Positions 12,091 to 15,426 of a stretch of DNA of 40,277 nucleotides are shown in pieces. How positions within the stretch are numbered: the first letter of the stretch is position 1; each line of letters starts with the position of its first letter. Below the pieces are notes generated by a model, which was not told the DNA's origin, ran no database searches, and worked only from the letters and a program-made list of their open reading frames with translations. The position numbers and the translations under genes were made by a program. Source of the DNA: Candidatus Iainarchaeum sp. (GTDB lineage Archaea > Iainarchaeota > Iainarchaeia > Iainarchaeales > DTGL01); the NCBI GenBank assembly GCA_021163505.1, contig JAGGVE010000020.1:1-40277 (forward strand), read 5' to 3'.

Positions 12091-12333
12091 ATGCTTATGA
12101 ATGTGAAGCTTGGAGTGCCCTATGAGATGATAATAAAAAAGATTATTGAGAAAGGGTATGCTGGGAATCAAACTGAAGTGATACGGCAAGCTTTGCTTGC
12201 ATATGAAAGATTGCTTGAAGAGGAAGAGGTGGTGCTTGTAAATAGAGGCATTAAACTTGAAATGCAGGAAATAAAAGCAGGCAGGATAAAAACCAAAAGT
12301 TTGAAGAGTATAAAAAAGAAGTACAAGTTGTGA
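12091..12333 (+). CDS. Type II antitoxin, ribbon-helix-helix (RelB/ParD-like)
   Basis: KLGVPYEMIIKKIIEKGYAGNQTEVIRQALLAYERLLEEEE; immediately upstream of RelE-like toxin. Confidence 0.75.
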   Translation: MLMNVKLGVPYEMIIKKIIEKGYAGNQTEVIRQALLAYERLLEEEEVVLVNRGIKLEMQEIKAGRIKTKSLKSIKKKYKL

Positions 12334-12339
12334 GCATGC

Positions 12340-12600
12340 ATGAAAATACTATTCTCTGAGAGGGCAGAAAAAGAATTGGAAAGTGCTGATCATAGCTTGA
12401 GAAAACTTTTCATAAAGCATGCAGAAAAAATTGCTTTAATGCCACTGCGAAAGCATATGCGATTTGGTATGCCTTTCAATGTCGAAAAGGTGACCAAACA
12501 GGCAAGAATCGTCTACCATATAGAAAAAAATATCTGCTATATATTGCACTGTTTTAAAACACACAAGGAATATGAAAGGTGGTACAAGTCGTTTAAGTAG
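12340..12600 (+). CDS. RelE/ParE-family toxin
   Basis: MKILFSERAEKELESADHSLRKLFIKHAEKIA...ARIVYHIEKNICYILHCFKTHKEYERWYKSFK. Confidence 0.8.
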   Translation: MKILFSERAEKELESADHSLRKLFIKHAEKIALMPLRKHMRFGMPFNVEKVTKQARIVYHIEKNICYILHCFKTHKEYERWYKSFK

Positions 12601-12658: not shown

Positions 12659-13543
12659 TTATTTTTCTCCCTCAACTTTCTTCTTTATAAATTCCATCAT
12701 CTTCTTTGGCACTGTGTTGCCTAGGAATTTTCTAAATGGCCCTGGCTGAAAGTTTGCCTCAATCACTGCAAAGCCCTGCTTTGTAAGGTTTGTTTCTATA
12801 AAATCTACTGCACAGATATCAAAGCCTAGGACACGAGCGGCTTTCACAGCATACTTTTCCATCTTTTTATTGCCTTCAATTATTTCCGCTTTGCCGCCTC
12901 TGCTTATGTTTGCGCGCCAGTCGCCCGGCTTTCCTGTCCTTTTTACACTCAGCACCTCATCGCCAAATACATAGCACCTAATATCGCTATTCTTGCCTGG
13001 AACAAAGCGTTGCGCAGATATATAATCCTCGAAGAGGTGTACCGTATCTAGAATTGAAAGCAATTGCTTTTTATCTCTTACAAGCATTACTCCTTTGCCT
13101 GCAAAGCCGCTTATAAGCTTCAAAACAACGGGAAAGCCGAATTCTTTTACAATATTTTCCATTGCCTGTGGTGAAGCGCTGAGCGATGTGAGCAAACAGG
13201 GCACCTTGTTCTCTGCAAGTTTCTTTATTGTGAAATATTTGTGGTTCGCTAACTGGTAACCTTTAAGAGAAACCGGCGTATATATCGAAGCATTGTCTAG
13301 TATCCTAAGGATGGCTTCGCCCATAAAGAAATCGCTCGAACCGAAACGGGGATAGCAGGCATCGAACTCAAGCAGATTTGTTTCTTTATATAAAATTTTT
13401 GTGGTGCCGTTCTCTTCAACTATGCGAAGCTTGTTTATAGGCACGAATAGCGCTTTATCAAACACGCGCTTAGCTTCTTTTATCAGAAGCTTATTATTTC
13501 CTTTATTATAGTGCGTTGCAGCGATTATAGCAATGCTTGCCAT
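12659..13543 (-). CDS. RimK/LysX-type ATP-grasp ligase
   Basis: FPVVLKLISGFAGKGVMLV, FVPGKNSDIRCYVFGDEVLSVKR, WRANISRGG, DICAVDFIE...FAVIEANFQPGPF; start chosen at MASIAIIA (overlap with upstream ORF minimal). Confidence 0.88.
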   Translation of the reverse strand: MASIAIIAATHYNKGNNKLLIKEAKRVFDKALFVPINKLRIVEENGTTKILYKETNLLEFDACYPRFGSSDFFMGEAILRILDNASIYTPVSLKGYQLANHKYFTIKKLAENKVPCLLTSLSASPQAMENIVKEFGFPVVLKLISGFAGKGVMLVRDKKQLLSILDTVHLFEDYISAQRFVPGKNSDIRCYVFGDEVLSVKRTGKPGDWRANISRGGKAEIIEGNKKMEKYAVKAARVLGFDICAVDFIETNLTKQGFAVIEANFQPGPFRKFLGNTVPKKMMEFIKKKVEGEK

Positions 13544-13544
13544 T

Positions 13545-14384
13545 TTAAGCACCAGAAACCTTTTCTTTAAAGAGCGAAGCGACCTCTTCAAATATATTTT
13601 CGCCTGTTTTCTTAGTGAAAACAACCATATTCACATAGGGCTTTACTTTAAGCACGAAGCCTTTGCACATCTTTACAGTTGCGATATCACAGCTACAGAC
13701 GCTTGCCGCCTGTATTGCTGTTTCTTCCTCTGCTTTTGATAGCTTTGAGGGCAAAGCCTTTTTTAATGGCTGCAGGCTTCCATCTTCTTTCACCATTCTT
13801 TTCAAATTGTACACCTTATCACCTATTACTGCGCAATGATCTACTTCGCCGGCAATGTACTCGCGAATAATTGCATTATCTGCTTGTACGCGTTCAGCTA
13901 AAGATGCTAGCATCTTTTCATCGTTTGCTATGAAGCTCTGTATCTTCTCGCCTTTTGAGTATAATTTCAAAAGCACAGGGTAGCTGAATTTTTCAGCAAC
14001 TGCTTTAATCTGCTCCACATTGCCAAGAATTGTTGTGCGCGGAATCTTTATGTTGTATTCGTTTAGCACACTTAATTGAAGCAGCTCATTGCTTCCGATA
14101 TAATATGAATTTTTCTTCACCTGACAATAAATGCCACGCCTCTCTATCTCATCTAATAAAGGCTCTACAAACTGGGTGAGCTTTAAAGGTGTTTCTAAAT
14201 AGATTGCTTTTATTTTGCTCAAGCCAAGCTTCGAATTTTTTATCTTTGAACCGCTCATATTTGTGAATAATGTAAGCTCGCGCACAGTTATAGCTTTTAC
14301 ATCAAGCCCTGCTTGCCTAAACGCATCTTTTAAGAAAGTGAATCGTTTCTTTTCGCCTTCCACAGCCATTAGAAGTTTTTCCAT
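13545..14384 (-). CDS. ATP-grasp-like protein, likely degenerate RimK paralogue
   Basis: FSYPVLLKLYSKGEKIQSFIANDEKML, EYIAGEVDHCAVIGDKVYNLKRM, CDIATVKMCKGFVLKVKPYVNMVVF; collinear with neighbouring RimK-like gene. Confidence 0.75.
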   Translation of the reverse strand: MEKLLMAVEGEKKRFTFLKDAFRQAGLDVKAITVRELTLFTNMSGSKIKNSKLGLSKIKAIYLETPLKLTQFVEPLLDEIERRGIYCQVKKNSYYIGSNELLQLSVLNEYNIKIPRTTILGNVEQIKAVAEKFSYPVLLKLYSKGEKIQSFIANDEKMLASLAERVQADNAIIREYIAGEVDHCAVIGDKVYNLKRMVKEDGSLQPLKKALPSKLSKAEEETAIQAASVCSCDIATVKMCKGFVLKVKPYVNMVVFTKKTGENIFEEVASLFKEKVSGA

Positions 14385-14534
14385 AAATGCCCCCCAACTA
14401 GCATATTAGAATAACATTCAATAAATATATACCTTTGCATTCCTCCAATAAAAAAATTACCTATTTTATGGCATATTCTTTTTTATAAGAGTGCCTCTTC
14501 TTTAAAAATTTTTTGATTTTTCCTTTGTGTTGTT

Positions 14535-14996
14535 ATGTCTCAACGAAAGGCAAAAATCGCAAAAATTCTAAGCGATAAAAAGATTGTAGGCCTTGTTGAA
14601 CCTGTGAAAATAATCGGAAAAAAACGCGCAATAGAAACACTTGCATTGCTTGATACAGGTGCGACGCGTTCAAGTGTTGATTTAAAGATTGCAGCTAGAG
14701 CTGGTTTAGGGCCTATAACAAGCGTTGCTCGCATAAAAAGCAAGGCTGAACCTAAAGGCTATACCCGCAGAGCGATAGTTGCTGGCCAAATAGAGATTGC
14801 AGGCGTAAGAAGAAAGGTGCACTTTACGCTGGCGGATCGCTTGGGTATGCGCTACCCTGTGCTCGTTGGCAGGGATGTTCTGCATGAGGGTTTTGTGGTT
14901 GATATAGAAAAAACGCACAATGGGTTTAAACTTACTGATATAAAGGAAGATGTTGAGCAAAATGCCAGAGATAAAAATAAGAGAAGCAAAGCTTAG
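14535..14996 (+). CDS. Retropepsin-like aspartic protease of the RimB/COG4067 type
   Basis: IETLALLDTGATRSSVDLKIA (DTGA), RRKVHFTLADRLGMRYPVLVGRDVLHEGFVVDI. Confidence 0.8.
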   Translation: MSQRKAKIAKILSDKKIVGLVEPVKIIGKKRAIETLALLDTGATRSSVDLKIAARAGLGPITSVARIKSKAEPKGYTRRAIVAGQIEIAGVRRKVHFTLADRLGMRYPVLVGRDVLHEGFVVDIEKTHNGFKLTDIKEDVEQNARDKNKRSKA

Positions 14997-15426
14997 TGAT
15001 GCAGAAGCGTTAACTACTCTATACCCTCACTGGGGCATCGAATTAGCAGAAAAGCGAATTGGAAGGGCTCTCAATAGCAAATATGAGAAGCGTTATATTG
15101 CTGAGATTGATGGCAAAGTGGTCGCACATCTCCTCGTTAGGTTTGAGCGAGGCGCCCATAAACATTTAGCAACTTTTTATTCTCTCATTGTTCATCCGGA
15201 ATACAGAAAAAAAGGCATAGCTACAAAGCTTGTTGAATATGCTATCTCAAAGCTCCCTGAAAATATTGAAATTGTTCTTGCTCAAGTGCAGCATGATAAT
15301 GTTGGCTCTTTAATGCTCTTCAAAAAGCTTGGGTTTGAGCAGTATGGATTGCTGAAGGATGCTTGGAAAAAAGAGAAAAGCTGCAAGGATAATATTCTTC
15401 TTAAAAGAGCGGTAAGAAAACCATAA
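14965..15426 (+). CDS. GNAT-family N-acetyltransferase (RimI-like)
   Basis: IREAKLSDAEALTTLY...LIVHPEYRKKGIATKLVEYAI...NVGSLMLFKKLGFEQYG. Confidence 0.88.
   Translation, partial: PEIKIREAKLSDAEALTTLYPHWGIELAEKRIGRALNSKYEKRYIAEIDGKVVAHLLVRFERGAHKHLATFYSLIVHPEYRKKGIATKLVEYAISKLPENIEIVLAQVQHDNVGSLMLFKKLGFEQYGLLKDAWKKEKSCKDNILLKRAVRKP

Follow-up and report, generated by a model that had tools for sequence, protein, structure and literature searches.

What do two abutting ATP-grasp genes, a retropepsin-like protease gene and an acetyltransferase gene do together in a small archaeal genome? The question is raised by a locus at positions 12659-15426 of a contig from a Candidatus Diapherotrites archaeon, which the original prediction regarded as a possible undescribed system for attaching amino acids to a target and removing them again. 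The window, meaning the whole stretch of DNA analyzed, is 40,277 nt long. The genome assembly comprises 958,664 bases (0.96 Mb), is 93.6% complete, and its only PF08443 proteins are the two encoded at this locus, here designated AG1 and AG2. Judged by AG2 identity, the nearest relatives among the named genomes are two Candidatus Diapherotrites assemblies (97% and 76%) and a third assembly (80%) that bears just the name 'archaeon'.

Locus layout and the paired RimK-like genes

The four genes are arranged divergently. AG2 (13545-14384, 279 aa) and AG1 (12659-13543, 294 aa) are read leftward on the minus strand, with AG2 first and a gap of 1 nt between its stop codon and the ATG of AG1 at 13543, while the protease gene, RLO (14535-14996, 153 aa), and the overlapping GNAT gene (14950 or 14962 to 15426, there being two candidate ATG starts) are read rightward on the plus strand. 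A longer AG1 ORF, beginning at TTG-13624, overlaps AG2 and is unlikely to mark the real start. The 150 nt region separating AG2 from RLO (14385-14534) yielded no convincing small ORF in a list that extended down to 20 aa. All of the genes originally described, together with the divergent region, are present and are supported by Pfam and NCBIfam matches. Between AG1 and a polyprenyl-synthetase-like gene lies a small gene pair (12091-12600) with weak matches to ParD and ParE/RelE, a possible toxin-antitoxin module by these matches; it was not recognized in the loci of relatives.

AG1 matches the Pfam RimK family (1.5e-29) and exceeds the cut-off of TIGR00768 (rimK_fam; 152.4 bits, cut-off 143.4). 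Its catalytic set consists of K102, K142, a Gly loop (146-151), R189, R210 and N212, with D247, E262 and N264 as Mg ligands, and these align with residues K100, K141, G145-G150, R189, R211, N213, D248, E260 and N262 of E. coli RimK. Across 77 aligned ATP-grasp proteins of Diapherotrites loci (AG1 set, n = 33; AG2 set, n = 35), every one of these positions is kept in 33/33 AG1 proteins except for E262, which is found in 32 and is conservatively replaced by Asp in the remaining one. The dN/dS of AG1 relative to its nearest relative is about 0.06. AG1 is predicted to be a catalytically competent ATP-grasp ligase, in agreement with the RimK-like writer that had been proposed. A further RimK-like ATP-grasp protein (AG3) with intact Mg-binding residues forms a separate branch and is encoded near certain loci of the MscS type described below (L049:6270-7100, L050:10978-11781, L055:3438-4259 and L089:4345-5262).

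The Pfam RimK match of AG2 is weak (3e-9, 37 bits) and its TIGR00768 score (45.4) does not reach the cut-off of 143.4. The D/E/N triad that binds Mg is retained in 0/35 members of the AG2 family, and the first Lys and the Gly loop are mostly gone from the set. An AlphaFold2 model of the protein (pLDDT 92) finds RimK structures as its top PDB matches (TM 0.80-0.85), with MdnC, MdnB and PsnB ranked below them, and a profile of AG2 aligns end to end with RimK 7QYR (2.6e-21). AG2 is also under purifying selection, with a dN/dS of about 0.05 (0.048) relative to its closest relative, comparable to that of AG1. Since the RimK fold is kept and selection maintained, AG2 appears to be a functional pseudoenzyme; it has lost the ATP-grasp catalytic residues across its family and should be a non-catalytic partner. 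The writer-like partner of the original prediction therefore survives as a RimK paralogue but not as a second writer.

The pairing of an active with a dead RimK recurs in other archaeal families. Wherever genes of this RimK clade were found as adjacent pairs in the loci examined, one copy is intact and the other degenerate, some of the intact copies carrying a substitution at a secondary site. The dead copies cluster together in a larger tree (SH-aLRT 96) and in a more careful one (bootstrap 74, SH-aLRT 85), so that the dead paralogue probably arose once, a history favored by both trees without firm support.

The retropepsin-like protein and the acetyltransferase

RLO carries the motif DTGA at residues 40-43, D40 being the predicted catalytic residue, and matches the Pfam Zn_protease/COG4067-type family (PF05618) above cut-off (5e-9). 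Its best NCBIfam match is RloA3 (3.4e-10), which lies under the curated cut-off, and assignment as either equivalog was rejected on the scores for RimB (NF052261; 23.1, cut-off 200) and RloA3 (NF052264; 39.8, cut-off 210). By sequence, RLO is a relative within the RimB/RloA family and is neither a RimB nor an RloA equivalog. An RLO profile aligns with the RloA structure 9g58 (5.8e-14), and the AlphaFold2 model (pLDDT 84) most closely resembles Lpg0085, RloA and RloA2, followed by HIV-type retroviral proteases, the first fold matches being 2pma, 9g58 and 9g59. Residues D40, G42, R79, R102 and G112 are invariant in 27 archaeal RLO members. No N-terminal hydrophobic signal was visible when the RLO sequence was inspected by eye. 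These features are as expected for the candidate eraser originally envisaged, which is here predicted to be a retropepsin of RimB/RloA type.

In RloA, residues K46, R114 and R137 contact polyglutamate (PMC12239564). From the residue spacing given in that study and the profile alignment, R114 and R137 correspond to R79 and R102 of RLO, while the position of K46 is occupied by L38 in the window protein; Lys is absent there from the Diapherotrites RLOs and present in many other archaeal members. With both arginines matched, an acidic substrate is plausible for RLO, but the third contact is altered. A genome-encoded polyglutamate target was rejected, no run of at least six Glu being encoded in the assembly, and a polyglutamate substrate would consequently have to arise after translation.

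Proteins of this family also occur in other settings. At L125:3675-4529 and L126:2685-4382, an RLO domain opens a longer protein that matches PF05618 once more and contains the motif HHELSH (weak match to peptide deformylase); no RimK homologue was detected in those two genomes. At L104:5461-7919, genes for a PF05618 protease, a RimK and an AstE/AspA-type deacylase stand in a row, and the RimK among them is placed by the tree closer to the E. coli enzyme than to AG1.

The GNAT protein matches Pfam Acetyltransf_1 (4.3e-16), and its gene overlaps the 3' end of RLO by 35-47 nt; the alignment of the family has 14 members. An identification as RimI, the S18 N-acetyltransferase, was rejected (44.7, cut-off 86.4). 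Within the Diapherotrites the gene lies beside RLO at 15/23 RLO loci and is present in 0/12 loci of the MscS type, and in the other archaea examined no GNAT gene adjoins RLO. On these counts GNAT is an optional neighbor and not a core part of the system, contrary to the role it had been given. In one genome, a gene for an HGSNAT-type membrane acetyltransferase is found between AG2 and RLO (L046:4135-4881).

Conservation of the neighborhood and the MscS-papain alternative

AG2 was identified as a strong case in 36 of 92 genomes of the phylum, and wherever the contig permits the comparison, AG1 lies directly downstream of it. RLO was found in 24/92 genomes, each time beside a RimK-like gene (24/24), and 23 of these genomes also carry AG2, the remaining one being G091. 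A simple count test of this overlap gives 1.6e-11, a value that ignores kinship among the genomes. Given the phylum-wide adjacency of AG2 and AG1 and the constant presence of a RimK-like gene beside RLO, the cluster is not a chance grouping, and the comparative neighborhood analysis bears out the association first noticed in a single genome.

The linkage extends beyond the phylum. An RLO profile was positive in 66/392 archaeal genomes; comparing its positions with those of RimK matches and of the Diapherotrites loci placed a RimK homologue adjacent to RLO in 54 and on another contig in six, and none was detected in the other six. In other archaeal families the arrangement may be divergent, collinear in the order RLO-dead-active, or collinear as RLO-active. 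RLO adjoins only the dead RimK in G239, G291 and G257, where the active copy is on another contig, an arrangement that links RLO not only with the ligase but also with the pseudoenzyme; RLO and dead RimK pairs of this kind are seen at L127:3742-5110, L128:3783-5103 and L129:652-2010. Synteny around the locus is broad, and since purA, a CTP-transferase-like gene and a membrane protein gene accompany the block in many genomes, proximity is not by itself proof of joint function. The related clusters in many archaea suggest a system, little studied so far, for reversible tagging or for making peptides.

In 12 other Diapherotrites genomes with AG2, RLO and GNAT are replaced by a gene just upstream of AG2 for a protein of about 510-560 aa, in which MscS channel domains are fused to a C39/papain-like domain. 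Among the 36 AG2 genomes, 35 have either RLO or MscS-C39, none has both, and one (G062) has neither; a count test of this exclusion gives 1e-8 when genomes are counted and 0.002 when families are. The sampled MscS-type AG1 proteins form one branch, so the switch from RLO to MscS-C39 may have been a single evolutionary event. Read by eye, the alignment shows the papain-like Cys and His kept in all seven of its Diapherotrites members and missing from about five of those from another archaeal family, and the domain weakly matches the phytochelatin-synthase-like protein Alr0975. Fusions next to AG2 or AG1 are found at L049:8844-10406, L050:9364-10890, L058:1825-3495, L088:4397-5962, L098:4332-5897 and in relatives. 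A full-length MscS-C39 relative also lies beside AG1 and RLO at L103, L105, L106 and L115, and no MscS-C39 protein was found in the window genome.

Proposed function and relation to known systems

The sequences and models establish a RimK with the residues needed for activity, a second RimK that has lost them, a retropepsin with an intact predicted active site, and conserved linkage. The reading preferred here, with a probability of about one half, is that the locus encodes an archaeal version of the ligase/protease pair known from RimK-RimB. In bacteria, RimB strips Glu from RpsF and also stimulates RimK (PMC11957791); RloA cleaves polyglutamate and shares a pathway with an ATP-grasp protein (PMC12239564). 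By analogy with both, AG1 would be a working ATP-dependent amino-acid ligase that activates a carboxylate and, going by its family, most likely attaches L-glutamate either at the C-terminus of a protein or to an acidic peptide as it grows. Glutamate is the probable residue by family membership, and other amino acids are also used by relatives of RimK. AG2 is most likely an obligate partner of AG1, probably in a heteromer, and would contribute not catalysis but acceptor binding, regulation or protease docking. RLO would cut the acidic chain made by AG1, reversing the modification or recycling its product, and GNAT may, more speculatively, cap the amino group of the product. The 12 Diapherotrites genomes that carry the AG pair and lack RLO count against RLO being indispensable. 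An extension of this reading that takes the replacement into account is rather unlikely as a whole: the dead RimK would be a specificity or docking subunit common to ligase and eraser, and erasure would be the work of either the soluble retropepsin or a sensor of membrane tension (MscS plus papain-like peptidase), thereby coupling a reversible acidic-peptide system to osmotic state.

Other explanations draw on much of the same evidence. That the genes are together through shared ancestry or general synteny, with separate functions, would account for purA and the other companions of the block, but RLO and RimK are linked in differing orders and orientations in other archaeal families, and RLO adjoins a dead RimK even with the active gene elsewhere, which makes mere synteny improbable. 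A known ligase for a cofactor or carrier protein (F420, methanopterin or LysW type) beside an unrelated protease is a still weaker proposition. MptN, CofF and LysX are relatives of RimK and each is weakly matched by AG1, but the scores are far under the curated cut-offs (105, cut-off 350; 49, cut-off 300; and 107, cut-off 276), neither LysW nor the F420-0 ligase CofE was detected in the assembly in searches whose controls gave matches, and the linkage to RLO is conserved across archaea; assignment to a known cofactor pathway, the outcome that the original prediction had named as fatal to it, was not what emerged. Least credible of all is a graspetide (RiPP) cluster, in which two ATP-grasp ligases, GNAT and a protease would mature a ribosomal peptide in the manner of microviridin. 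Microviridin clusters contain two ATP-grasps, a GNAT and a C39-type protein, so the gene content is reminiscent, as is the lower-ranked resemblance of the AG2 fold to MdnC, MdnB and PsnB; against this, AG2 is dead, AG1 belongs to rimK_fam above cut-off, the synteny across genera is that of a housekeeping gene set, and no recognizable precursor ORF of at least 20 aa is present between AG2 and RLO.

Two further explanations have the locus make a small product. Synthesis of an N-acetylated peptide or peptide metabolite, on a plan like that of N-acetylglutaminylglutamine (GNAT, ATP-grasp and peptidase), would have GNAT cap what AG1 ligates. It draws on the overlap of GNAT with RLO, the restriction of GNAT to RLO-type loci, weak matches of AG1 and GNAT to TIGR03103 (N-acetylglutaminylglutamine synthetase) and the resemblance of the papain-like domain of related loci to Alr0975, but it has little likelihood when the TIGR03103 scores are far under cut-off, only a single ligase is catalytically competent, and GNAT is missing from 8/23 RLO loci and from beside RLO in the other archaea examined. 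A free acidic peptide serving osmotic or charge balance is an unlikely alternative that nevertheless deserves some weight. Here the product of AG1, with AG2, would be a solute or a store in the form of free poly-alpha-glutamate or some short peptide; RLO would degrade it, a task that elsewhere in the phylum would fall to MscS-papain at the membrane upon tension. Free poly-alpha-Glu is a product of E. coli RimK (literature cited in PMC12239564), and Pseudomonas rloA mutants are sensitive to hypoosmotic conditions, a defect suppressed when the ATP-grasp protein RloC or the membrane papain-fold protein RloB is lost (PMC12239564). The substitution of MscS-C39 for RLO in 12 genomes, and its presence with AG1 and RLO in four loci, point the same way; on the other side, the window genome lacks MscS-C39 and the swap may count as one event only.

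For the ligase/protease reading, the closest counterparts are bacterial. RimK-RimB antagonism is an established mechanism there (PMC11957791), of which the Rlo operon represents a second version (PMC12239564), and with these precedents 'undescribed modification system' was too strong a term. Neither study mentions archaea, and in the open-licence literature nothing relevant was found on archaeal RimK/RimB, on pseudo-ATP-grasp proteins or on MscS together with ATP-grasp, nor any description of an archaeal version with a dead RimK and the MscS-papain swap. The initial observation was right and the functional idea reasonable. The main revisions concern the second ligase, which is dead, GNAT, which is optional, and the protease, whose place can be taken in related genomes by a membrane-channel protein. 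Very few bacterial substrates of reversible C-terminal polyglutamylation are known. If the process also operates in archaea with a dedicated pseudoenzyme subunit, it would provide a heteromeric RimK for study, a route to the archaeal substrate and a second link of RimK-like ligases and RimB-like proteases with membrane or osmotic physiology; genes conserved in many small-genome archaea also gain a testable functional hypothesis.

Like the Pseudomonas RimK-RimB (RimABK) system, the locus places a putative glutamate ligase gene beside a retropepsin of the kind that removes the added residues, AG1 has the catalytic residues of E. coli RimK, and RLO shares the RimB/RloA fold and active site and matches two of the three polyglutamate contacts. 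Archaea are not known to have the bacterial S6 protein, and the substrate must for that reason differ from that of bacterial RimK-RimB. The archaeal locus differs further in its extra dead RimK paralogue and GNAT, in the absence of an EAL-domain rimA among the genes identified beside it, and in an RLO that is about 27 residues shorter than RloA between the DTG and the first conserved Arg. LysX/ArgX-LysW, MptN and CofF are likewise archaeal ligases of the RimK superfamily, from which AG1 is set apart by its scores and by the undetected LysW and CofE; microviridin clusters share two ATP-grasp genes, a GNAT and, in the wider family, a C39-type protein, whereas here one ATP-grasp is active, of the RimK subfamily, in housekeeping-like synteny. 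With the RloABC operon of Gammaproteobacteria the locus shares a retropepsin and an ATP-grasp protein (PMC12239564), and the papain-like membrane protein of related archaeal loci, some members of which have lost the catalytic residues, recalls RloB, whose membrane anchor bears an inactive transglutaminase (PMC12239564). Unlike that operon, in which RloA is secreted and RloC is only 24% identical to RimK, RLO has no obvious signal, and the archaeal membrane protein, missing from the window genome, is MscS-like and not 7TM. The locus is best read as an archaeal variant of the RimK-RimB/Rlo type and not as a categorically new system.
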